NCBI RefSeq assembly: GCF_016765695.1
Contig: NZ_JAETGO010000081.1
Location: 1-32,666, forward strand
DNA: 32,666 nucleotides
Direction of reading: 5' to 3'
Origin: Sporosalibacterium faouarense
GTDB lineage: Bacteria > Bacillota > Clostridia > Tissierellales > VENL01
Under the pieces are notes generated by a model. It saw nothing but the letters and a program-made list of their open reading frames with translations, was not told the origin of the DNA and did not search any database. Shown here piece after piece: positions 1,908-14,377 of this stretch. Each line of letters begins with the position of its first letter. The first letter of the stretch is position 1. The position numbers and the translations under genes were made by a program.

Positions 1908-2678
1908 TTATTCCACTATTTTTTCCCTTGAGAATAATACCATAAGTACAAATATAGGCAATACTATCTGTCTCTTTATTCTCTTAGGGTCCTTCATTAA
2001 TCTATAAAACCATTCTAAGCCCATTTTTCGATATATCTTTGGAGCTAGCTTTACATTACCCGATAATATATCTATCGTACCTCCATTACCTATCATTACC
2101 TTACAATTTAACTTTTCCTTATTCTCATTAATCCAGATTTCCTGCTTAGGTGCCCCTAGACCAACAAATAATATATCTGCCTTTGATTTATTAATCTTAT
2201 CAATCACTTTTTGCTCTTCTTCATGACCACTATGACCAATATGTGCCCCTTTAAAGAAGCCATGATTATAACCGCAAATATTTATATTAGGATATTTCTC
2301 TCTTATCTTTTTACTGGCAGTCTCAGCTATACCCTTCTGTCCTCCCAATAAAAAAACTTTATATCCCATTTCATTTGCTAATTTAAGCATTTCAACCGAT
2401 ATATCGAAACCTGTTACTCTTTCTGGAAGACTATTTTTCTTAATCCTAGAAGCATATACTATTCCTATTCCATCAGCTATTAGCATATCACCTTTATTAA
2501 GAATTCCTTTAATATTCTCATCCTTTTTAGCTAACATTACCATTTCTGTATTAGGCGTATATATAGCTTTAGGTTTACTTGAATCTTTATCTTCTAAGAA
2601 GCCTTTTATCTTTTCTACAGCTCCATCAAAAGTTATCTTATTTATCTTTACCCCAAGTACCTTAATTAAATCTTCCAT
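1908..2678 (-). CDS. tagA: WecG/TagA/CpsF family glycosyltransferase (GT26)
   Basis: A 256-residue protein of the GT26 family, which transfers N-acetylmannosamine (or a related sugar) from a UDP donor to an undecaprenyl-diphosphate-linked N-acetylhexosamine, the committed linkage step of wall polymers. Visible family motifs are TPNTEMVMLA near residue 42, the ADGIGIV segment with the conserved aspartate near residue 70, LLGGQKGIAE near residue 115, VGLGAPKQEIWI near residue 173 and GNGGTIDILSG near residue 197. The C-terminal tail (GLEWFYRLMKDPKRIKRQ) is the membrane-targeting appendage typical of the family. It lies 18 bases downstream of csaB, a pairing common in Clostridia and Bacillus species with pyruvylated secondary wall polymer. 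The family is certain; the exact sugar is inferred. Confidence 0.9.
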   Translation of the reverse strand: MEDLIKVLGVKINKITFDGAVEKIKGFLEDKDSSKPKAIYTPNTEMVMLAKKDENIKGILNKGDMLIADGIGIVYASRIKKNSLPERVTGFDISVEMLKLANEMGYKVFLLGGQKGIAETASKKIREKYPNINICGYNHGFFKGAHIGHSGHEEEQKVIDKINKSKADILFVGLGAPKQEIWINENKEKLNCKVMIGNGGTIDILSGNVKLAPKIYRKMGLEWFYRLMKDPKRIKRQIVLPIFVLMVLFSREKIVE

Positions 2679-2696
2679 AATAGCACCTACCTTACT

Positions 2697-3791
2697 TTAT
2701 TCATTCTCACTTTCTAACAACTCTATTACCTTTTCAGATACGTTCAATACCTTTTCTTTCAGCTCTACTTTTCTTTCAGCCAATTTATTTTTATATTTAT
2801 CCCTATTATTCCAAACCTCTTCTATACATAAACATAAGTGAGTAAAATCAAGTTTATTTATATCTCCACTATTAACTCCATCAATCAACTGTAAAAAACC
2901 TTTTATCTTGGGGTCATATTCTATTCCTACCACTGGAACATTAGCTATTGCACCAAAAATTAGTGCATGTAGTCTTATTCCTATTAGAATTTCAAATTTC
3001 CCTATTATTCCTAGTACTTCCTTAGGTTTATAATAATTTTCTACTACATAGGGATTAGTTTCACACATTTCTTTAATTTCCAACGAGAATTCTACATCAT
3101 CTGGATATTTCATAGGTATTAATACTACTCTTCTATCTTTAGTAGATAAATAATCTACGGTTTTAGCTATAACATTTTTAGTTTTTTCATCATTTGTCCA
3201 TCTTCTAACCGAAATTCCAATAATTTCTTTATCTTTAGGTATACCCTCTATATCCATTATTTCATCTATTCTCTCTTCATTGGCAGGTTCCATTGTAAAT
3301 GCAGCGTCTGCTGCTACAATAACATTCTCTGTAATACCAATTTTCTTTAATTCTTTTGCTGACTCCTCATCCCTTAATGTTATTAAATCAACTTTATTGA
3401 CTATTTTATTAATAAGCAATTTATTCAACTTCTTCTTTACAGGACCATATCCATTACAAAAAAACATTACTTTCTTTTTAAAAAACTTCGCAATAAAAAT
3501 CAAGCTAAGATAGAATATCAATGACCTACTACTGGTAACATCCTGTAATAGTGAGCCTCCTCCACTTATAAGCAAATCGCAGTCCCTGATATTTTTTATG
3601 ATATCGAATAGCTTTGATCTACTTACAGGTGACACTCCATGAACACCCTTTGTATATTCGGCATCATATGTTAGTGCCGATATCTTTAAGTCTTTATTTA
3701 TATTTTTTAAATTACTAATAATGGAATCTAAAATTGCGTCATCACCACAATTTTTAAATCCATAGTATCCAAAAACAAAAATCTTTTTCAT
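2697..3791 (-). CDS. csaB: Polysaccharide pyruvyl transferase CsaB
   Basis: A 364-residue protein matching CsaB, which adds ketal-pyruvate to wall polysaccharide using phosphoenolpyruvate. That modification creates the binding site for SLH domains of S-layer and S-layer-like proteins. Sequence signs are the N-terminal FGYYGFKNCGDDAILDSII, the SGGGSLLQD motif near residue 75, and the C-terminal GIRLHALIFGAIANVPVVG with the conserved histidine, a GT-B-like donor site. ATG follows AAAGGAAG. It stands between a DUF4330 gene and tagA. The presence of csaB predicts SLH-domain proteins elsewhere in this genome; none is complete in this window. Confidence 0.93.
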   Translation of the reverse strand: MKKIFVFGYYGFKNCGDDAILDSIISNLKNINKDLKISALTYDAEYTKGVHGVSPVSRSKLFDIIKNIRDCDLLISGGGSLLQDVTSSRSLIFYLSLIFIAKFFKKKVMFFCNGYGPVKKKLNKLLINKIVNKVDLITLRDEESAKELKKIGITENVIVAADAAFTMEPANEERIDEIMDIEGIPKDKEIIGISVRRWTNDEKTKNVIAKTVDYLSTKDRRVVLIPMKYPDDVEFSLEIKEMCETNPYVVENYYKPKEVLGIIGKFEILIGIRLHALIFGAIANVPVVGIEYDPKIKGFLQLIDGVNSGDINKLDFTHLCLCIEEVWNNRDKYKNKLAERKVELKEKVLNVSEKVIELLESENE

Positions 3792-3826
3792 GGGTTTCTT
3801 CCTTTCATAATACTAGAACAAATTTT

Positions 3827-4327
3827 CTAGTATTCGATTCCGTAAATAGTAGATAAGAATGTAATCATTCTACTCCTAATTATTATAGATTGTCCTACAT
3901 GGACTTCATCATTGTATGCCTTAATTTTGTCATTAGTCACTAGACCTTTAGTCTTAATAATGAGGGTTAAGTTATATCTACCTGGAATTTCGCTTTCTAT
4001 TACATTTCCTTTTTCGTCTGTAGTCGTCATAGTAGCAGGTTCAACTATCTTATCAACTACTTCACCTATTGTATTGCCACTAGATAAGACACTAAACACA
4101 TCACCCTTTTCAACGCTATCAACAGATACGTCTTTTATACCATTTACAAAATATTTTATAGTTAACTCTTGTTCAGTTTCTGTTTGCTGAACTACATTAT
4201 TACCATCACCGCTTCCAGCTTTATAATAAGCAAATCCTCCAATCAAAACAACTACTACTAAAACTATAGCTAAGTCAATATAATTTATTAGCCCAAACAA
4301 TCTTCCTTTATCATCTATAAGCTTCAA
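3827..4327 (-). CDS. DUF4330 family single-pass membrane protein, copy 2
   Basis: A 166-residue protein with a short cytoplasmic N-terminus (LIDDKGRLFGLINYIDLAI), one transmembrane helix (about residues 17-38) and an extracytoplasmic beta-rich domain. The same layout occurs in the protein encoded at 7149-7637, and both share the patterns KGRxFGxxNxxD, GDxxxSVxSGxxxGEV and a late PGRYNLTLIIKTKGLVT / PGKYDVVLELKSPALVT. The TTG start (4325-4327) has AAAGGAGGT eight bases upstream, and that ribosome binding site contains the stop codon of the preceding glycosyltransferase, so the two are translationally linked. DUF4330 proteins have no assigned function; here they flank the polymerase and glycosyltransferase genes, suggesting an accessory role in polymer assembly or export (inference). 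Confidence 0.85.
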   Translation of the reverse strand: MKLIDDKGRLFGLINYIDLAIVLVVVVLIGGFAYYKAGSGDGNNVVQQTETEQELTIKYFVNGIKDVSVDSVEKGDVFSVLSSGNTIGEVVDKIVEPATMTTTDEKGNVIESEIPGRYNLTLIIKTKGLVTNDKIKAYNDEVHVGQSIIIRSRMITFLSTIYGIEY

Positions 4328-4332
4328 TTGTC

Positions 4333-5457
4333 CTACCTCCTTTTTAAGAGCCTTTCATATATAGTTAATGTTTCTTCCGTCATGGATTTTATGGAAAAAT
4401 ATTTTTCAACAGTACTTCTACCTAGTACACCTAAATCTCTTCTATCTTCAGAGTCCAGCTCGTATAATACTTGCTTTATATCATTTTCAAGAGATTCTTT
4501 AGTTATATTGTTTTCAACTGTTCTTCCAGTGAAATTATTAGAAATAGCTAACTCTATATTATCCTTATTTAATAGCCCCATATACCCTTCTCCACCAGCT
4601 AAAATAACTGGTCTTTTACAGGCCATTGATTCTAATGCTGTCCTAGATACACAGATTGCAACATCTCCTAAAGACATTATATCAGCTATATCAGTTCTTT
4701 TCCCAAGTAGATACATGAAAGGTTTGTCGAACCTTGAATTCACTTCGTTAACTAACTTTTGAATTCTCTCAAAATCATCTCCAGAACCAGCAATTATTAG
4801 CTCTATATCTTTATTATCCTTGTATAAATCCTGGCCAACCTCTATAACAAGCTCCAATAAAGTTGCCAAGTTACCTTCTATTCTACTTATATACACAATC
4901 TTTTTTGAATTTTCCTTTAGCCCTATATCTTTATATAGTGTTGAAACATTCTCAGAAAACGAGAACTTATCTGTGTCAATTCCATTGGTTATAATTGTGA
5001 TCTTTTCTTCATCAACACCAAAGTTATCCATTAAGTGATTCTTAATATCCTCACTTACACTTATTACCTCCTCGCCCCAAAATGACATATATTTGTATAA
5101 TCCTCCGTGGACAAATTTTGCGTGGGCTGAAGTCATAAAAGGTAATCTATTTAATATTGATATTATTTTACCTATAAGTGCTGGTATTCTTCCATGGGCA
5201 TGTATAATCTGAATTTTTTCATCTTTAATGGCTTTTTTCATCATTGTCAATGATTTAATTATACTTTTAATATCCTTTTGGTCTAAAGGAGCATCATAAT
5301 GTGGAATATTCTTATCCAACAATTCATCAACATATACTCCGCCAGAGGAAATGACAACAGGATTATGTCCTATATTCTTAAGTTCCTTTGCCAAGCTGAC
5401 TACATGGGTTTCTGCTCCTCCTATATCAAGCCCCATGGCAACTAATAAAATATTCAT
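4333..5457 (-). CDS. GT4 family glycosyltransferase
   Basis: 374 residues of GT-B fold. The N-terminal domain opens with MNILLVAMGLDIGGAETHVV, which has the GGAETHV loop common to GT4 enzymes. The C-terminal donor domain shows VYISRIEGN near residue 190, and the ALESMACKRPVILAGGEG region with the conserved E and the nucleotide-sugar-binding segment near residue 285. An in-frame ATG three codons upstream abuts the AGAAGAAGG ribosome binding site, whereas the ATG at 5457 has nine bases of spacing, so I chose 5457. It probably adds a sugar to the lipid-linked wall-polymer repeat unit at the cytoplasmic face. Donor and acceptor cannot be read from sequence. Confidence 0.88.
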   Translation of the reverse strand: MNILLVAMGLDIGGAETHVVSLAKELKNIGHNPVVISSGGVYVDELLDKNIPHYDAPLDQKDIKSIIKSLTMMKKAIKDEKIQIIHAHGRIPALIGKIISILNRLPFMTSAHAKFVHGGLYKYMSFWGEEVISVSEDIKNHLMDNFGVDEEKITIITNGIDTDKFSFSENVSTLYKDIGLKENSKKIVYISRIEGNLATLLELVIEVGQDLYKDNKDIELIIAGSGDDFERIQKLVNEVNSRFDKPFMYLLGKRTDIADIMSLGDVAICVSRTALESMACKRPVILAGGEGYMGLLNKDNIELAISNNFTGRTVENNITKESLENDIKQVLYELDSEDRRDLGVLGRSTVEKYFSIKSMTEETLTIYERLLKRR

Positions 5458-5483
5458 GAATATCATCCTTCTTCTAATTTTTC

Positions 5484-6698
5484 TTACACTTCTAATTTAA
5501 GTTTCTTTTCTTCATTGCTATTTAAAACATAATAGTTTATCAAGATTCCTACAATAAGCCAAAATGCCATTATTATTTTGGGATTAAAGAATATATGTTC
5601 CGCTATACCATGGACTAAAATGCCCGATAATGATGCAGCATACGCCGCAGTAAAAATTCCTATAAACCTGCTTTCACTATTAAATGATAGTTTTATACTC
5701 ATCTTCATTAAACTGAAAATTAAAAGTAAGAACACTATTATACCTACAACTCCCATCTCTATTGCGATTTGAAGATACAAGTTATGGGTGTGATATGGTG
5801 CCATAGTTCTTATATATAGTGGTATAATTTGCTGAAAGGGAATATATCCCAATCCTATTCCAGAATACCAAAAATCCTTCACAATATTAACTGACTTACT
5901 TAAAAGATTTAAACGATATATAATGGATGTATCCTGAAAACTACCTAGTGTCATAACTCTATGAATTATTGATGCTGGTAAAAATAATACACCTACCATA
6001 CCCACTGGTATCAACGCTAATAGAGCCTTTCTATTTACTAGGAATAAAAACACTATTATACCGACCATCAATCCTAACCATCCACCCCTTGAGTAGGTTA
6101 ATCCAATAGTTATTAATATAATGAACGTTGCTGCACTGAAAAATAATCTTTTAAATATACTTTTATTATAAAATATCAGTGCTAGACCAACTGGAAATAT
6201 CATTATTAAATATTCTGCCAATAGATTGGGATTTTCAAAGGTAGCAAATACCCTTGTTGTTAGATCAGGATTCTGTGTTGGGTCTACCCATCCACTTCCC
6301 ATCTCAACACCGTTCACGTATTGACTAATTCCATATATTGATACAGTTAGTGCTACCAAAACTAAAACTACATTTATTAGATACATATCTTGCTTTGTTT
6401 TTCTACTGTTAGTAAATACAAAAATCATCCCCAAGGAAGCCATATGTAGCGAAAAATCTCTAAAGCTCCCATTTGGATCAATGGATAGAACAGTATTTAG
6501 AAATACCAATATCCCAAATATAAGTAGAAAAATATTCGCAGGTGTATAGTTAAATTTAAAGTCTCCATCTATAATGTAATATATCAGATAAATGCCAACT
6601 ACGCCTATTGATACTAGCAATAATTGCATGTCCGATAAATAAGGTAATCCGATAATAAAGAAAATTATACTATATATAGGGCTTATCCATTCTTTCAT
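5484..6698 (-). CDS. O-antigen ligase / polymerase (WaaL/Wzy-like) family membrane protein
   Basis: About 404 residues with ten or more hydrophobic helices, a large extracytoplasmic loop between about residues 260 and 320, and the late motif PYHTHNLYLQIAIEMGVVG with the conserved histidine of the O-antigen ligase/Wzy_C superfamily. In this superfamily the enzyme polymerises or ligates lipid-linked glycan on the outside of the membrane. The reading frame could begin earlier, but GAGGAG precedes two adjacent ATGs (6701 and 6698) and the second has the better spacing of seven bases; that ribosome binding site overlaps the stop of the upstream gene. In a csaB/tagA run, its likely job is polymerising the secondary wall polymer (inference). 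Confidence 0.87.
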   Translation of the reverse strand: MKEWISPIYSIIFFIIGLPYLSDMQLLLVSIGVVGIYLIYYIIDGDFKFNYTPANIFLLIFGILVFLNTVLSIDPNGSFRDFSLHMASLGMIFVFTNSRKTKQDMYLINVVLVLVALTVSIYGISQYVNGVEMGSGWVDPTQNPDLTTRVFATFENPNLLAEYLIMIFPVGLALIFYNKSIFKRLFFSAATFIILITIGLTYSRGGWLGLMVGIIVFLFLVNRKALLALIPVGMVGVLFLPASIIHRVMTLGSFQDTSIIYRLNLLSKSVNIVKDFWYSGIGLGYIPFQQIIPLYIRTMAPYHTHNLYLQIAIEMGVVGIIVFLLLIFSLMKMSIKLSFNSESRFIGIFTAAYAASLSGILVHGIAEHIFFNPKIIMAFWLIVGILINYYVLNSNEEKKLKLEV

Positions 6699-6702
6699 CA
6701 TT

Positions 6703-7116
6703 TCACTCCTCAGGTTCAAATACAAAAACCTTAACTAATATTGCTCTCATAAGACTATTTTTAAAGGTTGTCTTAAGGTTTATAAACACTTTATTATTTC
6801 TATTCTTAGGCTTTACTATATTACTAACTCCCTTGATAATTAAACTACCATCTCTACCTTTAGCATAGAGTCTATGGAAAAAGCTTATTAAGTTTCTAAT
6901 TATTGTTTCTATTCCTTTTATAAAAAAGCTTTTATTAGCATATGGGTCTTTATTTCTATTTCCTAATAATATTTTATATATCATACTATTTTTAAAGTAA
7001 TCTTCTAGCTTACTTAGAGTTCTATTTATTACTTTACATGTAAAGCTACTCTTATAGTACTCAACAAATATATTGATTAATTTTAATAAAGCTCTTAATA
7101 TTACACTATTTTTCAT
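6703..7116 (-). CDS. Basic protein of unknown function with internal repeats
   Basis: A 137-residue, very lysine- and arginine-rich protein that I do not recognise. It has no signal peptide and no clear transmembrane helix. It shows degenerate internal repetition of a segment of about 50 residues beginning KNS/KSF, with an amphipathic helix in the middle: KNSVILRALLKLIN near the start, KNSMIYKILLGNRN near residue 45, KSFFIKGIETIIRN near residue 62, and KNSLMRAILVK near the end. A GTG codon three residues earlier keeps the frame open, but GGAG sits eight bases before the ATG at 7116, so that start is preferred. It lies 32 bases after the first DUF4330 gene, and its stop overlaps the ribosome binding site of the O-antigen-ligase-like gene. 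It is therefore a coupled member of the wall-polymer operon. Amphipathic basic repeats suggest contact with the membrane surface or with anionic polymer (inference). Confidence 0.7.
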   Translation of the reverse strand: MKNSVILRALLKLINIFVEYYKSSFTCKVINRTLSKLEDYFKNSMIYKILLGNRNKDPYANKSFFIKGIETIIRNLISFFHRLYAKGRDGSLIIKGVSNIVKPKNRNNKVFINLKTTFKNSLMRAILVKVFVFEPEE

Positions 7117-7148
7117 AACAAACACTCCAAATATAAATTAGAAAGCTC

Positions 7149-7637
7149 TTATTTAACAATATTAATCACATCACAATCAAACACATATAAGTCTGACTTT
7201 AGTCTAGTTTCTGATCCAATATACATTGGTTTTCTTCCAATTAATATTCCTTCCTCAGTGACCAAAGCAGGACTCTTTAGCTCTAAAACAACATCGTATT
7301 TTCCTGGAATACTTTTAAACTCAACTTTTCCATCTTTACCAATTACCAACTCCTGATGAGGCTCCACACTACTCTTGCTTAAAACTTCTCCGAACTCAGA
7401 CCCTCTAACAGAGTCTAGTAATATGTCACCCTCTGTAATCGCTTCTACTAATCCACTACCTATATCTTTAACTTCGATAGTTACAGAAATCTCTTCTGTA
7501 TAGTCTTGAGTTGTATTACTAATCTGACTAAACTTATATACTCCTCCAAAAACCATAAGCAAAACTATCATTAAAACAGCAAAGTCTACAATATTTACTT
7601 TACCAAAAATTCTTCCTTTCTTATCTATAAGTCCCAT
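7149..7637 (-). CDS. DUF4330 family single-pass membrane protein, copy 1
   Basis: 162 residues with the same architecture as the 3827-4327 gene product: GLIDKKGRIFGKVNIVDFAV, one transmembrane helix (about residues 17-35), and an extracytoplasmic domain. ATG follows GGAGGTAATAGA. It is the first gene of the coupled run towards csaB; two near-identical extended -10 promoter elements lie about 130-160 bases upstream. The two DUF4330 proteins are clearly homologous but diverged, suggesting an old duplication with separate roles. Function is not known. Confidence 0.85.
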   Translation of the reverse strand: MGLIDKKGRIFGKVNIVDFAVLMIVLLMVFGGVYKFSQISNTTQDYTEEISVTIEVKDIGSGLVEAITEGDILLDSVRGSEFGEVLSKSSVEPHQELVIGKDGKVEFKSIPGKYDVVLELKSPALVTEEGILIGRKPMYIGSETRLKSDLYVFDCDVINIVK

Positions 7638-7763
7638 TCTATTACCTCCATACTTAGATTTTAAATTAACCTAATAAAATGACATAATTTAATTACGTAT
7701 ATCTCTACAGAATTAATATCCTTTAAATAGCCTATAAAGTCATCTTTTTATAAATCCTAAAAT

Positions 7764-7799
7764 ATTATATCACAAATCCATACCTATGATTATATCACA
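7764..7799 (-). promoter_or_regulatory. Tandem extended -10 promoter elements upstream of DUF4330 copy 1
   Basis: On the minus strand the 11-mer TGTGATATAAT occurs twice, at 7799-7789 and 7774-7764, exactly 25 bases apart. Each reads as an extended -10 (TGnTATAAT). A TTGATT upstream of the first has a long 19-base spacer, so the -35 contribution is weak. They would drive the DUF4330-to-YitT run. Confidence 0.5.
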
Positions 7800-7864
7800 G
7801 TTTGTAAAATTATAATCAAGCTTATGTAATTTAGCAAAGATACGGGAATTTAATTAACGATAAA

Positions 7865-7889
7865 ATAGCTGTAGATTAACTACAGCTAT
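7865..7889 (-). terminator. Terminator-like hairpin after the secreted coiled-coil gene
   Basis: A perfect 10-base inverted repeat (ATAGCTGTAG / CTACAGCTAT, loop of five) lies 22 bases past the stop at 7911. On the minus transcript it is followed by only a short TTTTAT run, so termination may be partial. Confidence 0.6.
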
Positions 7890-7910
7890 CCATATCTTAA
7901 TATTACAATA

Positions 7911-8477
7911 CTATTGTATCCTATAGCTACCTCTAACCATTAATATCGCTGTCTCAACAGCATAAACACCTCTACCATCACTTCTAGGTACTATCAATAG
8001 ATGATTAGGTGTTATTGCCTCTCCCATTGGAATGTCTTGACCACCTGTTACATCGGAAAGTCCTCCAAGCTCACTTGCAATTGCTTGAGCTTGTCCAGCT
8101 CTGAGGATTATTTCAGCCCCTGCGTCACAAACCAACATCTTACCTTTTTCTAATGTAACTACCTCTAGATTTGAACCAGCAGACCCTGATTGATTCTGAA
8201 GCTGTTCTATTTTTCCTTTTAATTCACTATTCTCAGTTTTCAATGTATCTATTTCTGTTTTATTATTAGTTATATTTCCATTAACTTCCTCTATTTTACT
8301 ATTTACATAAAACTTTATTTGTTCTAGTCTTTGCTCCACAAAACTTAATGTTACTAATGGATCATTTGTTGACCCTGGTTCTGAAAATGTGGCATTAGCT
8401 GCAATAACAAATCCTGCTGACATTCCTGTTACTATTACTGATATCAATAGTTTTCTTTTTATCTTTTTAAAATTCAA
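7911..8477 (-). CDS. Secreted protein with coiled coil and conserved C-terminal domain, function unknown
   Basis: 188 residues. A signal peptide (KKIKRK, then a hydrophobic stretch ending near AANA, residue 29) is followed by a predicted coiled coil with an N-glycine break (about residues 45-95, EVNGNITNNKTEIDTLKTEN), then a compact C-terminal domain (about 103-188) with GKMLVCDAGAEIILRAGQA, PNHLLIVPRSDGRGVYAVE and a final ILMVRGSYRIQ. I recall similar C-terminal domains in other Bacillota hypotheticals but know of no assigned function. The TTG start (8475-8477) has AAAGGAGGT eight bases upstream. A hairpin follows it and gtrA lies before it, so it is probably a single-gene unit within the envelope region. 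Confidence 0.75.
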   Translation of the reverse strand: MNFKKIKRKLLISVIVTGMSAGFVIAANATFSEPGSTNDPLVTLSFVEQRLEQIKFYVNSKIEEVNGNITNNKTEIDTLKTENSELKGKIEQLQNQSGSAGSNLEVVTLEKGKMLVCDAGAEIILRAGQAQAIASELGGLSDVTGGQDIPMGEAITPNHLLIVPRSDGRGVYAVETAILMVRGSYRIQ

Positions 8478-8596
8478 AATAGCTACCTCCTTTTAAACTA
8501 TATATAATCTACAAGGTTATGTATCTCTCTAGTATCTATTCGACGCTATTTATAAATATCCTGTAATTATAAAGTATTTTCTATTAGTAAAGTTTG

Positions 8597-9007
8597 CTAA
8601 TTAAGTCTTTTTTCCTTCTTGAAAATATAAAATTTAGATAAAACATAGTTTATTATTACAACAAGCACATTAACTACTAATTTACTTATTACTTGATCCA
8701 TATTTATCAGCTCTATAAGAAGCATTAATCCAAATATATCAAAAAAATATGTGAGAATCCTACTTGATAAAAACTTTAATCCTTCTAATGACATTTCCTT
8801 TATGGATTTTGCTCTAACGCTAAAAACATAATTGCGATTTGTGAAATAAGCAAAGATTACTGACACTATAAAAGCAATTGAAGTTGCTATTTTAAAGTCT
8901 ATATTTAAATAAATAAGCAAATAATAAACAATAAAATTTATTAGTGTGGTAAATACACCAAATATAGTATATAATCCTATTTCTCTAATTGATTTTTTTC
9001 TTGACAT
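8597..9007 (-). CDS. GtrA family membrane protein (lipid-linked sugar flippase)
   Basis: 136 residues with four hydrophobic helices, the usual size and layout of GtrA. The N-terminal helix motif GVFTTLINFIVYYLLI and the loop AYFTNRNYVFS are typical. GtrA proteins are thought to flip undecaprenyl-phosphate-linked sugars across the membrane. The ATG follows GGAGTGCAGAT and the gene overlaps the end of the upstream GT2 gene by 31 bases, implying tight co-expression. It forms a Gtr-like trio with that GT2 enzyme and the large membrane protein upstream. Confidence 0.87.
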   Translation of the reverse strand: MSRKKSIREIGLYTIFGVFTTLINFIVYYLLIYLNIDFKIATSIAFIVSVIFAYFTNRNYVFSVRAKSIKEMSLEGLKFLSSRILTYFFDIFGLMLLIELINMDQVISKLVVNVLVVIINYVLSKFYIFKKEKRLN

Positions 9008-9963
9008 ATCTGCACTCCAGACTTATATAAAATCTTATTATCATTGTATTCATCAACAAAGTATAGAGGTCTTTTTTTTGTTTCATTAAAAATTCTACCT
9101 ACATATTCTCCTATTATGCCTAAAGAAATTAGTTGAATCCCACCTAAAAACAGTATCACAACCATCAATGAAGGATAACCCTTTACAGGCTCATTCCATA
9201 TCAGGGTTTTCACTATAATAAATATCATATATATAAAGCTAAAGAATGAAATGCTCAATCCAAAAAATGATGAAACCTTTAGTGGTGTAGTCGTGAAGGA
9301 TGTAATTCCTTCAATGGCAAGGTTGATTAGCTTCATATAATTCCATTTTGTACTTCCAGCTGCCCTAGGATTTCTATCAAATAGAATTTCTTTTTTGTTA
9401 AATCCAATCCAACTAAACATTCCTTTTGTATATCTCTGATTTTCTCTAAATCCTTTGAGTGCCTCTAATGCTCTCTTATCAAGTAATCTAAAGTCTCCAG
9501 TGTCTTCTTGTATAGGGACGTTAGTCAACCTTTTTAGGATTCTATAAAAGCTATGTGATGTTAGTTTCTTTAACCAAGACTCACCTTGTCTACTCCTTCG
9601 CTTAGCATATACATCGTCATATCCTTCTTCCCAATACTTAATCATTTCTGGAATCAAATCTGGTGGATCCTGTAAATCTGCATCTAAAATAATAACTGCA
9701 TCACTTTGTACATAATCGAACCCAGCAGCCATAGCTATTTCTTTGCCAAAATTTCTAGATAAATTTATATAGGATACTCTAGAATCTTTTTTATGTAGTT
9801 CCTTTAATAGCTCTCCTGTCCTATCCTTACTTCCATCATTAACAAATAAAATCTCAAAGGAATATCCTTGAACTTGTTGAATTACTTCAATTAATTTATC
9901 ATAAAGCATAAATAGAACATCTTCCTCATTGTAAGCAGGAATTAAAATACTGATACTTTTGAT
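8977..9963 (-). CDS. GT2 undecaprenyl-phosphate glycosyltransferase (GtrB/DPM1-like), apparent ATC start
   Basis: The enzyme transfers a sugar from a nucleotide donor to undecaprenyl phosphate on the inner face of the membrane. The GT-A domain shows NDGSKDRTGELL, SRNFGKEIAMAAGFD, the ILDADLQDPPDLIPEM metal-binding DxD region and RQGESW. Two C-terminal transmembrane helices follow (about residues 235-255 and 270-290). The first ATG in frame is at 9909, but this omits the first GT-A strand. In-frame codons upstream encode KSISILIPAYNEED, the expected family N-terminus, and reach back to an ATC at 9961-9963, seven bases after AGAGAGGGG. No ATG, GTG or TTG exists in frame between 9909 and the stop at 9985-9987. 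I therefore place the start at the ATC, giving 328 residues. The alternative is a mutated or miscalled ATG. Confidence 0.82.
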   Translation of the reverse strand: MKSISILIPAYNEEDVLFMLYDKLIEVIQQVQGYSFEILFVNDGSKDRTGELLKELHKKDSRVSYINLSRNFGKEIAMAAGFDYVQSDAVIILDADLQDPPDLIPEMIKYWEEGYDDVYAKRRSRQGESWLKKLTSHSFYRILKRLTNVPIQEDTGDFRLLDKRALEALKGFRENQRYTKGMFSWIGFNKKEILFDRNPRAAGSTKWNYMKLINLAIEGITSFTTTPLKVSSFFGLSISFFSFIYMIFIIVKTLIWNEPVKGYPSLMVVILFLGGIQLISLGIIGEYVGRIFNETKKRPLYFVDEYNDNKILYKSGVQICQEKNQLEK

Positions 9964-9984
9964 AGTATTACCCCTCTCTGTTTT

Positions 9985-12285
9985 TTATTTGATCCTAATT
10001 TCATAAGGTGATTTCTCAGTTCCTTTTCCGCCAACTATTTTAATATCATCAGTAATATAAATAGCTGGAATAACAGCTATATTCTTAACATTTGCATCCT
10101 TATGGTATATTAAGCCATCAGTATCGACGATTCTTACCATACTTGAGCTACTATAATATGGAGTTCTAAGCCAATACTTCATTTTTACTTTTTTATTATT
10201 ATAGCCAAAATACTTATTAACCCTTATATTATTCTCAAAAACGTAATTCACCAATTGATGTATATCTAATAAAAACACTTTATCATTTGATGTCATATAA
10301 TATGCTTGTTCATAATTCTGATCTGCAATTGACGTAATATTTATCCAATAATGAGGTCGGGACCCTCCATCTTTTCTATCTAAATCAAATGCAGACAAAA
10401 CATTTCTGTTATTTACTGATAATATAGCATTCTTTTCCTCTTGAGTAAATTCTGTTAAAAAACCATTGCTTTTATCTTGATTCAACCATTGTCTTATATC
10501 CGAGGTAGCCCAAAGATTAGAACCATAGTTATCCATATCATCATTTAAATTCTCATCTATATGGTCAAATTCATTAATTTCAACTATTTCATCAGACCAA
10601 AGTAGATACCCTACATTTTCGTTATAATTTATTACCTTCCAATCTATAGATTCTTGATTATATGTTCCAAATTTAATAGTATCTCCTATATCTACATTGT
10701 CATCAACCTTTGCAATATTTATTATAGGTGGAATACTAATAATGATTGCTATTGCACTTATGATAGTTATTAGAGCTTTTTTATCAACATTGACTTTTAC
10801 ATATTTTTTTATATTCAATTGACTTACTCTTACTAGTAGCCAAATTATTCCTAAGAAAATCATGAAATCAAAGCATGCATTAAATAAATACATATGCTTT
10901 ACTATATCAGCTTCACCATTACCTATTATTGGTATGGCAAACTGACTTCCGGCAATTAAAAACAATAATGATGCACCTAATATGCTAACTAAATTAGATT
11001 TACTTTTTTTATCAGATCTTATCCATTTAATAAGCTCATAAATTAGAATACAAGCAAATAAAATAAATAGTAAAATAATTATTAGAAATGCTGAGCCTAC
11101 AAATTGTTTTCTAATATAACTCCAAGCAGAAAATCTATTAGTTAACTTAAGTCTTTCTATATAATCAACCTTACGATAATTGCCAAGATATGGTGGACTC
11201 ATCATTATGCTACTTTCAGCGGTTATCTTTAGCTTATCTATAAACCTTGTTGGATGCTTTAGATAAAACTTTAAGACCTCAAAATGGGATGCATTGTCAT
11301 AAACTGCTTCTTTAAATTCATCGCTATATATATTATAACCATTATGATATAGATATCCGTGGGTATCCTTCAAAACTAAATATTCTTCACTTATACCTAA
11401 ATCTCTTAAATCTTCTTCTGGAGTTGGAGAATCTTTTAATACTCCGAAAAATATAGAGTGATAATTAGTAACTTTTCTCATCCAATCGGGAGATTTAGTG
11501 TAAAAGTGCATTGATGTAATTATTAAAGCAATAGATAAGACTGAGATAGTTATTCTAATTTTTAAGTCCTTCTTCAAAAGAATAAAGCTTAGTCCAAAAA
11601 TTGCTATTAAAATTCCCATGGGAGAATTGGCTACCTTTGCACCTACAAAAATAAAAGCTGCTATATAAAACGATATTATTGAAGGTAAATTTGGACTTTT
11701 ATTCTTTATTATCCATAATGTCATGGCTATCATCATAAATAGGGATGTGATAATTGTAGCTTCTCCAAAAAAAGAATTAAAATAAATAATATATCCTATA
11801 TCACAAAACATAAAAATCATAAGTCCAAAAGCAATTATTCTATGGACAGCTTTTTTTATTCTTAAATTCATATAAATATAATAAAGTGATATTCCATATA
11901 TAATTATATATACTATAGCTAGAAATCTGATATCAAATATCCTATTATTTAATCCCATAATCGTTTTAACAATAATATTCAATATCATTGCAACTTTAAT
12001 AATTATAAATTGTGTTGAAACATACTCCTCTTCATTTGGTATTGAAGGACTGATGACATTTGAAATATACTCAAATATATTATTACCTTGGTTCAAATTT
12101 ATGTCATATTCATTATAAAAATAGAAAAATTTCTGATAATCATTAATTTCTAATCCCAAAGGTTGTATTACTCTAAAATAATCAGCATTATCGGCTAATC
12201 CAATAAAAGGTTTAAACAGCAGTAATCCTGATAGTAGAGTAATTAAAAATAAAAAAACAAATATTTTTATGTATTTAGTCTTCAT
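9985..12285 (-). CDS. Polytopic GT-C-like glycosyltransferase with extracytoplasmic DUF6273-like domain
   Basis: 766 residues. Residues about 1-540 contain a dozen hydrophobic helices and a first extracytoplasmic loop starting GLADNADYFRVIQPLGL, with acidic residues placed as in GT-C catalytic loops, and FNSFFGEATI later. I see a loose resemblance to WsfD-type hexose transferases of S-layer glycan clusters, from memory and unverified. After the last helix (about residue 530), a soluble outer domain of about 220 residues has IKFGTYNQESIDWKVINY, SDIRQWLN, KYWLRTPYYSSSSMVRIVDTDG and IPAIYITD, the pattern of DUF6273 domains. The ATG at 12285 follows AGGAGG by five bases; an ATG ten codons earlier lies upstream of that ribosome binding site. 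It is the first gene of the trio with the GT2 and GtrA genes, which suggests it is the final transferase working on the outer face. Confidence 0.78.
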   Translation of the reverse strand: MKTKYIKIFVFLFLITLLSGLLLFKPFIGLADNADYFRVIQPLGLEINDYQKFFYFYNEYDINLNQGNNIFEYISNVISPSIPNEEEYVSTQFIIIKVAMILNIIVKTIMGLNNRIFDIRFLAIVYIIIYGISLYYIYMNLRIKKAVHRIIAFGLMIFMFCDIGYIIYFNSFFGEATIITSLFMMIAMTLWIIKNKSPNLPSIISFYIAAFIFVGAKVANSPMGILIAIFGLSFILLKKDLKIRITISVLSIALIITSMHFYTKSPDWMRKVTNYHSIFFGVLKDSPTPEEDLRDLGISEEYLVLKDTHGYLYHNGYNIYSDEFKEAVYDNASHFEVLKFYLKHPTRFIDKLKITAESSIMMSPPYLGNYRKVDYIERLKLTNRFSAWSYIRKQFVGSAFLIIILLFILFACILIYELIKWIRSDKKSKSNLVSILGASLLFLIAGSQFAIPIIGNGEADIVKHMYLFNACFDFMIFLGIIWLLVRVSQLNIKKYVKVNVDKKALITIISAIAIIISIPPIINIAKVDDNVDIGDTIKFGTYNQESIDWKVINYNENVGYLLWSDEIVEINEFDHIDENLNDDMDNYGSNLWATSDIRQWLNQDKSNGFLTEFTQEEKNAILSVNNRNVLSAFDLDRKDGGSRPHYWINITSIADQNYEQAYYMTSNDKVFLLDIHQLVNYVFENNIRVNKYFGYNNKKVKMKYWLRTPYYSSSSMVRIVDTDGLIYHKDANVKNIAVIPAIYITDDIKIVGGKGTEKSPYEIRIK

Positions 12286-12378
12286 TAGTTCCTCCTGATC
12301 TTTTCTAATAATCAATATTATGATACCACTAAATATGTCTTTTGCATAGTAATCTTACTATTTCTTTCAATATTTACC

Positions 12379-12412
12379 AAAAATAAAAAGAGCCTGGATA
12401 TCTTCCACGCTC
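12379..12412 (-). terminator. Terminator after mazF
   Basis: On the minus strand GAGC-G-TGG ... CCA-G-GCTC forms a stem with one internal mismatch, followed by TTTTTATTTTT. It begins six bases past the MazF stop. Confidence 0.75.
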
Positions 12413-12417
12413 GTATC

Positions 12418-12768
12418 TTAAAAATCTATTAAGCCCATGCTAATTTTTAAGCATTCATTTACTTTATTCATCATATCTTCATCGAAATGTCCGACCTTTT
12501 CTCTCAACCTCTTCTTATCTATAGTTCTAATTTGTTCTAATAATACCACTGAATCCTTAGGTAATCCATAGTCAGAAGCCTTTATTTCAATATGAGTGGG
12601 CAGCTTTGCCTTATTAATCTGTGAAGTGATAGCTCCAACAATTATTGTTGGACTATATTTATTGCCAATATCATTCTGTATCACTATCACAGGCCTTACT
12701 CCACCCTGTTCTGAACCTATAACAGGGCTTAAGTCAGCATAGAAAACATCTCCTCTTTTAACAATCAC
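12418..12768 (-). CDS. ndoA: MazF/EndoA endoribonuclease toxin
   Basis: 116 residues matching EndoA/MazF mRNA interferase. The signature [31 protein letters not shown] contains the catalytic arginine after GGVRP, and the later VGAITSQ holds the family's catalytic serine/threonine region. The start is a GTG overlapping the antitoxin stop as GTGA, so translation is coupled. In Bacillota this pair is a chromosomal toxin-antitoxin module commonly found just downstream of alr, as it is here. Confidence 0.95.
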
Positions 12769-13046
12769 AGTTTTTCACACCCTGTCAAATTATCTTCATA
12801 TTCACATAGAGCTTTGTAGTCTGCTTCATATCCTACTTCTGATAGTACTAAATTTAAATTCGCCATTTCTCTATATCCACTTTTTAGTTCTTCCCTTAGT
12901 TGAACCTTTCTTCTCTCTCTAATATATAGCTTCATGGCCTCTCTTATAAATTCACTTCTATTCCTCTTCTCAATGGATACAATCCCATCAATTTCCTCAA
13001 GCAAACTATCTGGCAAGCTAATCATAATACGTTTTGTCTCGGCCAT
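12765..13046 (-). CDS. ndoAI: Ribbon-helix-helix antitoxin of the MazF/EndoA pair
   Basis: 93 residues. The N-terminus ([19 protein letters not shown]) is a CopG/MetJ ribbon-helix-helix DNA-binding domain, and the C-terminal half (about 50-93) is the toxin-binding tail. The frame stays open further upstream, but GGAGG sits seven bases before the ATG at 13046, which is the clear start. RHH antitoxins of this type neutralise MazF and repress their own promoter; the promoter at 13138-13167 is the likely site. Confidence 0.92.
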
Positions 13047-13137
13047 TAGAGCACCTCCAAAAAAATAAAGCAATATTTGTTTTAAAAAACATTATCCACC
13101 ATTATAGCATATTCATATATATAGCAGTATATACTCG

Positions 13138-13167
13138 ATTATATATTATCTCTTATAAGTGTGTCAA
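13138..13167 (-). promoter_or_regulatory. Sigma-A promoter for the mazEF pair
   Basis: On the minus strand TTGACA (13167-13162) and TATAAT (13143-13138) are both perfect consensus hexamers separated by 18 bases, giving a start about 85 bases before the antitoxin ATG. The palindromic TA-rich sequence between this promoter and the gene could serve as an operator. No terminator separates alr from this promoter, so read-through from alr is also possible. Confidence 0.75.
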
Positions 13168-13201
13168 TCAAAAGGTCAATTTATACTCCCTATTAAATAT
13201 A

Positions 13202-14377
13202 TTATTCTAATAGATAATCTTTTATATCTATAATTTCTCCGTTTTTCACATAAACTCTAGGGACTCTCCTGCTAATCATGCATACTATCTCATAATTGAT
13301 AGTATCTAACTTCTCAGCAATTTCATCAATATGTGGTGTATTATTTTTCCCATTTCCGAATAATATTACTTCATCTCCAATATTTACATCACCAATACTT
13401 GTTATATCAACCATACATTGGTCCATGCATATTCTACCAATAATTGGAACCCTCTTCCCTTTTATAGTTACTTCTGCTTTACTCGTTAACATCCTAGTAT
13501 ATCCATCGGCATATCCTAATGGCAAAGTGCCAACCTTTGTTATCTTATTAGTTACATATATATGACCATAGCTAATACCTTTACTTGATTCTACCGTCTT
13601 AACATTTGAAATACAAGCTTTTAAGGTCATTGCTGGTTTAAGATCAACATTCTTTATCTTTACTTCTTTAGAAGGATAAAGTCCATATAACATAATACCA
13701 GCTCTAACCATATCCATATTATACTCCTTCAAATCAATTATGGCAGCACTGTTTGACACATGCTTTATAGGTATCTCTATGTTCTTTTTCTGTAGTCGAT
13801 TTACTATCCACATAAACTTACTAAACTGTTCTTTAGTTTCTTCTTTATTTTCTTCATCAGCCACAGCAAAATGAGTATAAATGCCCTCTACTTCAACATT
13901 TGGAAGCTTTCTGATTTTTTCTATTTCATCAATAGTTTCGTCATCAACCTTATACCCCAATCTTCCCATTCCAGTATCAATCTTAATATGAACCTTACTT
14001 ATAGTATCAAGCTCCTTTGCAATTAAAGACAAAGTGTGAGCCTGATCATATGTATATATAGTTTGAATTATTCCATATTTAAGTACACTAGCAGCTTGAT
14101 AAGTTGGTGTATAACCTAATATCAATATAGGATCATCAATCCCATTTTCCCTTAACTCAATTGCCTCTGACAATGTGGCTACAGCAAGTCTATCGGCACC
14201 ATTTTCTAAAAAGGTTTTAGCAACAACAGAAGCGCCATGTCCATAACCATCAGCTTTTACTACTGCAGTTATCAAAGTGCCTTTCTGAGTATTCTTAACT
14301 ACCTCATTAATATTATGTGCTAAATTATCCAAATTTATCTCTACCCAAACAGGTCTCGTATTTTCTAATAAAGACAA
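13202..14377 (-). CDS. alr: Alanine racemase
   Basis: 391 residues of the PLP-dependent alanine racemase, which makes D-alanine for peptidoglycan. Visible motifs: AVVKADGYGHG with the PLP-binding lysine (about residue 40), THFAVADEE, HVSNSAAI, GISYGHIY with the catalytic tyrosine and RICMDQCMVDI. The frame is open to 14440, but AAAGGGGGAT lies six bases before a TTG at 14375-14377, and that start gives the normal N-terminus (SLLENTRPVWVEINLDNLAHN). It is downstream of a GerS/LolA-like lipoprotein gene. In Clostridioides difficile alr2 and gerS are neighbours and D-alanine/L-alanine balance affects germination, so a spore link is possible, but a housekeeping role alone is equally consistent. 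Confidence 0.94.
   Translation of the reverse strand: MSLLENTRPVWVEINLDNLAHNINEVVKNTQKGTLITAVVKADGYGHGASVVAKTFLENGADRLAVATLSEAIELRENGIDDPILILGYTPTYQAASVLKYGIIQTIYTYDQAHTLSLIAKELDTISKVHIKIDTGMGRLGYKVDDETIDEIEKIRKLPNVEVEGIYTHFAVADEENKEETKEQFSKFMWIVNRLQKKNIEIPIKHVSNSAAIIDLKEYNMDMVRAGIMLYGLYPSKEVKIKNVDLKPAMTLKACISNVKTVESSKGISYGHIYVTNKITKVGTLPLGYADGYTRMLTSKAEVTIKGKRVPIIGRICMDQCMVDITSIGDVNIGDEVILFGNGKNNTPHIDEIAEKLDTINYEIVCMISRRVPRVYVKNGEIIDIKDYLLE

Follow-up and report, generated by a model that had tools for sequence, protein, structure and literature searches.

We report a three-gene glycosylation cassette on the minus strand of a 32,666-nucleotide stretch of Sporosalibacterium faouarense DNA (contig NZ_JAETGO010000081.1, assembly GCF_016765695.1; the whole stretch is called the window below). 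It encodes a polytopic glycosyltransferase of the GT-C class belonging to the WsfD family, a GtrB-like family 2 glycosyltransferase (GT2) and GtrA. The system is of a known kind. Its transferase carries a C-terminal DUF6273 tail with a C-type-lectin fold in our models, a widespread variant that we did not find described in the literature searched. We think it probable, with room for doubt, that the cassette adds hexose branches from undecaprenyl phosphate to a CsaB-type wall polymer, with a module for binding the acceptor built into the transferase. The genes, their families, the predicted folds, the placement of the tail by charge pattern and the co-occurrence across genomes are the data; from them we infer the donor sugar, the flipping, the acceptor and the function of the tail. 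In such a system, the GT2 would use a nucleotide sugar to charge undecaprenyl phosphate with a hexose on the inner side, and GtrA would flip the lipid-linked hexose across the membrane. The WsfD-family GT-C protein would then attach the hexose, outside the cell, to a surface glycan as a side branch, while the DUF6273 tail, held outside on the last membrane helix, would grip the acceptor glycan beside the active site. The components are as follows.

9985..12285, minus strand: GT-C glycosyltransferase of the WsfD family with a C-terminal DUF6273 tail, 766 amino acids, no internal stops
10735..12285, minus strand: membrane part of that protein, residues 1-517, with a GT-C fold in the model; residues 10-480 match WsfD
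12181..12192, minus strand: candidate catalytic or metal site, a D-N-A-D motif (residues 32-35) where the first outer loop begins
9988..10704, minus strand: DUF6273 tail (residues 528-766), predicted from models and topology to have a C-type-lectin fold and to lie outside
8977..9963, minus strand: GtrB-like GT2, presumed polyprenyl-phosphate hexose synthase, 328 amino acids, no internal stops
8597..9007, minus strand: GtrA, presumed flippase for the polyprenyl-phosphate-linked sugar, 136 amino acids, no internal stops

An earlier note, made from the sequence alone, had described these as three consecutive genes forming a Gtr-like three-component cassette. All three are indeed consecutive and open on the minus strand, and family matches for each bear out the classification. 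The GT2 matches PF00535 (E 3e-37), the PHROG GtrB-like family (E 2e-114) and the solved glycosyltransferase sll0501 (E 1e-106), which we take to be GtrB. By eye, it has a DADLQD motif and two hydrophobic C-terminal stretches, the layout of a GtrB-type protein with C-terminal membrane helices. GtrA is recognized by PF04138 (77.7 bits, cut-off 26.1; E 1e-21) and by the PHROG GtrA-like family (E 2e-6); with the NCBIfam profile gtrA_1, it scores 18 bits, below the cut-off of 50. It is the sole PF04138 match in the source genome at E 0.001, and one WsfD was found there.

The membrane part of the GT-C protein matches WsfD (NCBIfam NF051875) over positions 2-451 of 452 with 413 bits (cut-off 80; E 1.2e-123). 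We looked for relatives in one genome per species, covering 84,980 species, and kept the best 80 loci of the 230 relatives found. Tails were called from the reach of the tblastn match, which extended to residue 728 or beyond, and so spanned the tail, in 74 loci and ended at residue 488-494 in the other 6; because the query itself is tailed, this ranking favors tailed relatives. From the 74 tailed loci and the window, 43 proteins were chosen for length and aligned, and all of them, the window's included, match the WsfD profile at E 0.001. An AlphaFold2 model of the 766-residue protein, built with these 43 sequences, reached a mean pLDDT of 91.3 and a pTM of 0.91. Compared with solved structures, its membrane part matches Pmt (Z 15.7), STT3 (14.7), ArnT (13.5), PglB (13.1) and EmbB (11.1). 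Rows 2-43 of the match list, at Z 15.7 to 8.6, are all what we take to be GT-C or GT-C-like proteins; rows 45-49, whose titles suggest proteins of other classes, were disregarded. Two points weigh against the assignment: the Foldseek matches to GT-C proteins are weak (best STT3, E 1.7e-3, TM 0.29), and for helical proteins a Z below about 13 can arise by chance. It is therefore the uniformity of the match list that carries it. The earlier note had called this protein GT-C-like and proposed structure prediction as the check; the predicted membrane part has a GT-C fold, rather than lacking one.

By analogy, D32-N33-A-D35 is a candidate catalytic or metal site. N33 and D35 are present in all 43 aligned rows and D32 in 40. 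Together with R38, E175, K217, N220, D460, K463 and H464, N33 and D35 are invariant, and these residues, in or near loops placed outside, make up a candidate active site; K217 and N220 sit at a loop whose side is ambiguous in the charge analysis. Averaged over the 43 sequences, the loops after helices 3, 5, 7, 9 and 11 carry a charge of +1.8 to +3.1, which marks them as inside, and those after helices 1, 4, 8 and 10 carry −0.8 to −3.6, which marks them as outside. Helices 2 and 6 fit the alternation poorly. Since the tail follows helix 12, this pattern predicts that the DUF6273 tail of the window protein lies outside the cell.

The tail was said earlier to be an outer DUF6273-like domain of about 220 residues. 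Its identity and predicted side stand; its length as modelled is nearer 240 residues (about 528-766). Pfam DUF6273 (PF19789) matches residues 563-741 with 49.4 bits (gathering cut-off 23.5; E 6e-13), and it matches all 43 aligned proteins, which confirms the identity of the tail and says nothing of its frequency, the rows having been picked as tailed. Modelled alone, the tail has a pLDDT of 95.0 and superposes on the immunoglobulin A (IgA) peptidase 9qa6 (residues 33-305) with Z 31.0, at 2.2 Å over 233 residues and 31% identity. The same structure was the only hit at E ≤ 1 when the whole 766-residue protein was searched with phmmer against the PDB sequences. Below 9qa6, most rows of the list down to row 39 are C-type-lectin-fold proteins, each at Z ≤ 8.6; they include the C-terminal domain of Lcl (Z 8.6), a Treponema variable protein (7.4), PvdO (6.4) and many C-type-lectin domains at Z 5-6.4. 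A single Z under 8 is weak for this fold, and Foldseek at E ≤ 0.001 gives 9qa6 only. A library of viral models gave 24 matches at E ≤ 0.001, many of them named DUF6273. In the excerpted literature, phage DUF6273 domains have a C-type-lectin fold (PMC10743442), and residues 31-322 at the N terminus of the IgA peptidase are termed DUF6273 by the authors (PMC12402451). The uniform match list, taken with the published work on DUF6273 (PMC10743442, in excerpt), is the reason for our assignment: as modelled, the tail has a C-type-lectin fold.

DUF6273 has also been reported in target proteins of diversity-generating retroelements (DGRs) (PMC10743442 and PMC11792537, both in excerpt). We considered a DGR acting on the tail and rejected it: no template-like repeat was found in positions 7000-13500 of the window, in the whole window or in the eight loci of its own genome that were compared. 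Six RVT_1 matches occur in the source genome, two of them long (G000:C38 and C90). That genome also has two stand-alone DUF6273 genes, L033 at 10204-10881 on the plus strand (225 amino acids) and L034 at 3291-3917 on the minus strand (208 amino acids). Their 3′ parts share about 72% DNA identity over 227 bases, and their products end in WWWWLRSPG...GVRPALWL. Three further loci, L030 (8330-10390), L031 (3770-5803) and L032 (3877-9135), from the same taxonomic order, encode proteins of 677 to 1752 amino acids with DUF6273-like stretches near the N terminus; none of the three matches WsfD.

The earlier note treated the tail as an unusual feature of this cassette. It is not peculiar to it, as the 74 tailed loci among the best 80 of 230 relatives attest. 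In a class sample of 391 genomes, 53 have a WsfD over the cut-off. The open reading frames (ORFs) are mostly about 450-550 or about 690-820 residues long, and phmmer detects the tail in 23/23 long loci versus 0/17 short ones. A first tree of 67 membrane parts separates tailed from untailed proteins by one change (support 92/85). For a second tree, we added 16 weaker untailed sequences and dropped 14 tailed rows whose clades are still represented; it omits L083, L182, L093, L094 and L101. Here 28 of 29 tailed rows, from Clostridia and Paenibacillaceae, form one clade (99/95), with L118 apart. The idea that the tail arose just once was therefore set aside: this tree needs two changes, and one suffices in only 12% of bootstrap trees. 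Without a fixed root, gain and loss of the tail read alike. The trees and the counts together indicate that the tail is an old, stably inherited mark of a widespread WsfD subfamily and not a novelty of this window. We found no relative of the tailed GT-C protein among the 20 pattern matches of a viral contig scan, and a viral origin was rejected. One relative appears broken: at L067, which lies on the same contig as L139, a tailed WsfD is split into overlapping frames (5425-5796 and 5751-7520), by a frameshift or a sequencing error. L067 is one of the 23 long loci with a tail, which is matched there in an ORF of its own.

Nine genomes (G384, G342, G506, G441, G259, G227, G245, G324 and G207) have both a long, tailed WsfD and a shorter one, the shorter proteins of G441 and G227 being judged by ORF length alone. 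The two forms may serve two acceptors. Nearer the window, a search of 199 genomes with the whole protein gave matches in 15: the source genome, six genomes of one Sedimentibacter-like genus, seven with the tail part only, and G117, whose weak membrane-part match contains stops. In the Sedimentibacter-like genus, full-length homologues with 48-49% identity are found in G086, G110, G125 and G131. The homologue of G137 is split, that of G134 is an N-terminal piece, and G020 has no match to the 766-residue protein.

Whether the three genes work together can be judged from their neighborhoods, and several counts weigh against a fixed unit. Both a GT2 and GtrA lie within 3 kb of just 7/74 tailed genes (L104, L106, L110, L111, L113, L116 and L119). 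Among the 48/74 tailed loci with 3 kb on both sides, the trio is present in 4; in the other 26, one flank is shorter than 3 kb, and genes were detected by simple profile. The two members of the window's own family, G001 and G002, have no match to the protein. The earlier note had named neighbors that do not keep the trio together as evidence against its proposal, and outside the nearest relatives the trio is largely not kept. Partial sets occur as well: L105 has the GT2 only, where the contig ends, and L109 and L150 have GtrA only. Where the trio does recur, its order is that of the window in the Sedimentibacter-like loci and in two Clostridiaceae (L111 and L113), and another order is seen in L116 and in 4/6 untailed loci, the same fraction of untailed loci that have both genes within 3 kb.

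Linkage aside, the genes mostly occur in the same genomes. GtrA is present in 27 and a GT2 in 26 of the 28 genomes with a tailed WsfD. In the 23 of these outside the Sedimentibacter-like genus, GtrA is found in 23/23 and a GT2 in 21/23, mostly unlinked; at its threshold of E 1e-30, the GT2 search includes proteins with identities of 32-40%, which are not necessarily GtrB. GtrA lies beside WsfD in G464 and 0.5 kb away in G207. Across the class sample, GtrA occurs in 50/53 genomes with WsfD versus 233/338 others (p 5e-5, uncorrected for kinship). The cross-counts of GtrA, GT2 and CsaB were read from tables by eye. We also looked for conserved linkage to other genes of the window. When 13 window proteins were searched with phmmer at E 1e-8, the sole matches in the 80 loci were DUF4330 in L116 and YitT in L137, and the idea was dropped.

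These data bear on the possibility that the GT-C protein has no functional tie to its neighbors, the trio being an accident of this lineage and the donor a different one. The adjacent pair is absent at 67/74 tailed relatives, a count that includes the 26 short-flanked loci and depends on simple profile detection. Yet the GtrA and the WsfD of the source genome are each the only one found there, the trio comes back in the several lineages and orders given above, and GtrA and a GT2 accompany the tailed protein in nearly all of the 23 more distant genomes. We regard an untied GT-C protein as very improbable.

A different neighborhood is more common. At 32/74 tailed genes, at least two of the clusters HU, S4, YabP, YabQ, DivIC and S1, each named from one representative, lie upstream within five genes, and at the same 32 loci nicotinate phosphoribosyltransferase or Sua5 lies downstream within five genes. 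The yabPQ-divIC-type loci include L121, L122, L124 and L127-L133. From gene order, a tailed WsfD in this setting has a possible role in spores or division. A broader proposal, which we put forward as doubtful speculation, is that the WsfD-DUF6273 proteins form an ancient branch of the transmembrane glycosyltransferases that is guided by a lectin-fold domain. The tail would read the wall polymer, gating or positioning the transfer, and in gut Clostridia the branch would have been taken into the yabPQ-divIC locus. If true, it would give the protein a core role in glycosylation of the spore or septal envelope, with donor and flippase encoded elsewhere.

What the tail does is best approached through its residues. 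Canonical sugar-binding C-type lectins have the motifs EPN or QPD plus WND. Against a sugar-gripping tail, EPN, QPD and WND are each found in 0/43 tails, and the looser [EQ]P[ND] in 2/43. This invites the alternative of a tail without a sugar role, a structural or protein-binding C-type-lectin-like module that docks, for example, a polymerase, ligase or divisome partner while the GT-C core picks the acceptor. C-type-lectin-like domains often bind proteins, untailed WsfDs evidently manage without the module, and the 32 tailed genes near divIC and yabPQ-type genes would fit a docking role. It is harder to square with a tail kept through essentially one clade (28/29 tailed rows) with five residues, G540, W549, L601, G641 and Y710, invariant in 43 rows, and predicted on the side of the membrane where the acceptor has to arrive. 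W549, N590, R598, W705, Y710 and R718 are taken to make up a conserved face of the tail. In some of the larger GT-C enzymes, binding of the acceptor polymer is ascribed to outer domains (PMC8035078, in excerpt). A purely structural tail seems somewhat unlikely; by analogy with the carbohydrate-binding domains of AftD-like GT-C enzymes, the tail is most likely an acceptor-gripping module.

The nature of the acceptor is suggested by a co-oriented cluster downstream of the trio.

1908..6725, minus strand: cell-wall-glycan cluster, from profile matches
1908-2678, minus strand: glycosyltransferase of the WecB/TagA/CpsF family, match over cut-off
2697..3791, minus strand: csaB, polysaccharide pyruvyl transferase, TIGR03609 at 271.5 bits (cut-off 213.1)
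3827-4327, minus strand: protein resembling DUF4330 (Pfam scored DUF4330 only for 7149-7637)
4333-5466, minus strand: glycosyltransferase, match below cut-off only
5484-6725, minus strand: O-antigen-ligase-like membrane protein, match below cut-off only

Between the trio and this cluster lie a gene for a 188-residue coiled-coil-like protein with a signal-like N terminus (7911-8477) and the DUF4330 gene (7149-7637).

In the class sample, CsaB (E below 1e-60) is present in 24/24 tailed genomes, the window's included, versus 174/367 others. It is also found in 19/29 other WsfD genomes and, among genomes without WsfD, in 155/338 over the cut-off. Counted within the 29 are G254, where fragments matching WsfD lie in a 1205-residue ORF, and G375, whose gene is truncated where its contig ends. 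For the 24 tailed and 19 untailed genomes, passing the cut-off was inferred from E below 1e-60. The p values are 6e-8 for tailed versus all others, 0.001 for tailed versus other WsfD and 0.05 for untailed WsfD versus none, and they flatter the association because the 24 tailed genomes fall in just 8 families. In the Sedimentibacter-like genus, 5/6 draft genomes have CsaB. Given the CsaB cluster downstream, the 43 SLH matches in the source genome and the 24/24 co-occurrence, the acceptor is most likely a CsaB-type pyruvylated secondary cell wall polymer, the kind that holds SLH proteins. Some evidence points the other way. Many genomes of the class have GtrA (283/391) or CsaB (198/391), and CsaB or TagA homologues lie beside the tailed gene in 0/80 loci, within a reach of at most 8 kb and often less; the evidence for a CsaB polymer therefore comes from this window and from co-occurrence across whole genomes, which kinship inflates. 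In addition, the WsfD of Paenibacillus alvei, with WsfH, serves the glycan of a surface-layer (S-layer) protein (PMC2943079, in excerpt).

That last point raises the prospect of the same trio acting on an S-layer glycoprotein glycan, with the tail binding the glycan or the S-layer protein. The family namesake acts on such a glycan (PMC2943079, in excerpt), tailed WsfDs occur in Paenibacillus and Cohnella, and the 43 SLH matches suit this acceptor too. But the neighborhood in the window is a CsaB cell-wall-polymer cluster, and no protein-glycosylation transferase was seen by eye among the window genes, where no profile search was aimed at one. We consider an S-layer glycan somewhat unlikely and favor the CsaB-type polymer.

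The layout of the genes is as follows. The earlier note had given a 31-base overlap between GT2 and GtrA, which holds, and a 21-base gap between the GT-C gene and GT2, which holds only if the GT2 starts at the ATC at 9963-9961. In the GT2 frame, no ATG, GTG or TTG occurs from the upstream stop down to 9909, a point already inside the catalytic domain; the start is therefore apparently ATC, where ATG is aligned in four relatives. An ATC would be a rare start codon, or it may signal a weakened gene or an assembly error, and it counts against our reading of the cassette. Two elements accompany the genes.

9971..9980, minus strand: ribosome-binding-site-like stretch cagagagggg, 5′ of the ATC; relatives have AGGGAGG or AAGGAGG there
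12379..12412, minus strand: terminator-like hairpin and U-run after a MazF-like gene, −13.1 kcal/mol, z −2.94

Equal stability of the hairpin was seen in 1/200 shuffles, and a simple terminator scan missed it. With this hairpin and U-run behind the MazF-like gene upstream, the GT-C gene probably begins its own transcription unit, as judged from sequence. Promoter-like sites in the scan are at chance level (40 versus 41.9 expected), and terminator-like sites are near it (2 versus 1.3), one of them inside the GT-C gene (10080-10061). Directly upstream of the cassette, at 12418-13073, are the genes for the MazF-like toxin and for an antitoxin that is ribbon-helix-helix-like by eye.

Several known systems resemble this one in part. 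In P. alvei CCM 2051, the branching glucose on the S-layer glycan depends on WsfH and WsfD (PMC2943079, in excerpt). The window GT-C protein falls in the same family by its NF051875 score, a likeness that runs through the profile and not the P. alvei protein itself, and it is likewise paired with a presumed lipid-loading GT2. However, the window has GtrA, whereas the P. alvei cluster has no flippase as described in the excerpt of PMC2943079, and the window adds the DUF6273 tail and the CsaB cluster. The multicomponent systems of Gram-positive bacteria, GtsA/GtsB/GtsC, CsbB/GtcA/YfhO and CsdAB with CflA, also combine a GT2, GtrA and a GT-C protein in decorating an outer polymer (PMC8035078, in excerpt); here the GT-C protein has a lectin-fold tail, and the likeness lies in the logic of the components, not in homology to GtsC or YfhO. 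With the phage GtrA/GtrB/Gtr trio for O antigen, the window shares its PHROG GtrB-like and GtrA-like matches, but its locus is bacterial and its GT-C protein is a tailed WsfD.

Mycobacterial EmbB and EmbC have outer carbohydrate-binding domains. AftD, and perhaps YfhO, are noted to have them as well (PMC8035078, in excerpt). Like AftD and EmbB-EmbC, the window protein joins a GT-C core (Emb cores match at Z 8.6-11.1) to an outer domain; its C-type-lectin fold is different from theirs. The tail superposes on the N-terminal DUF6273 domain of the ThomasA IgA peptidase, but unlike DUF6273 in that peptidase, in phage tentaclins and in DGR targets, it is fused to a GT-C enzyme, and unlike in DGR target proteins, it comes without a template repeat in the window or the eight own-genome loci compared.

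A description of a WsfD-DUF6273 fusion did not turn up in the literature searched, a weak absence given incomplete journal coverage. According to speculation in a review, recognition of the wall polymer by some of the smaller GT-C enzymes depends on a second protein (PMC8035078). In WsfD-DUF6273, the transferase and the polymer-recognizing part speculated on there look naturally fused. Because nine genomes hold an apparently untailed WsfD relative as well as the tailed one, the role of the tail is directly testable. The finding also suggests a cellular setting for DUF6273, a domain that the literature available in excerpt discusses mainly in phage receptor binders and the IgA peptidase.

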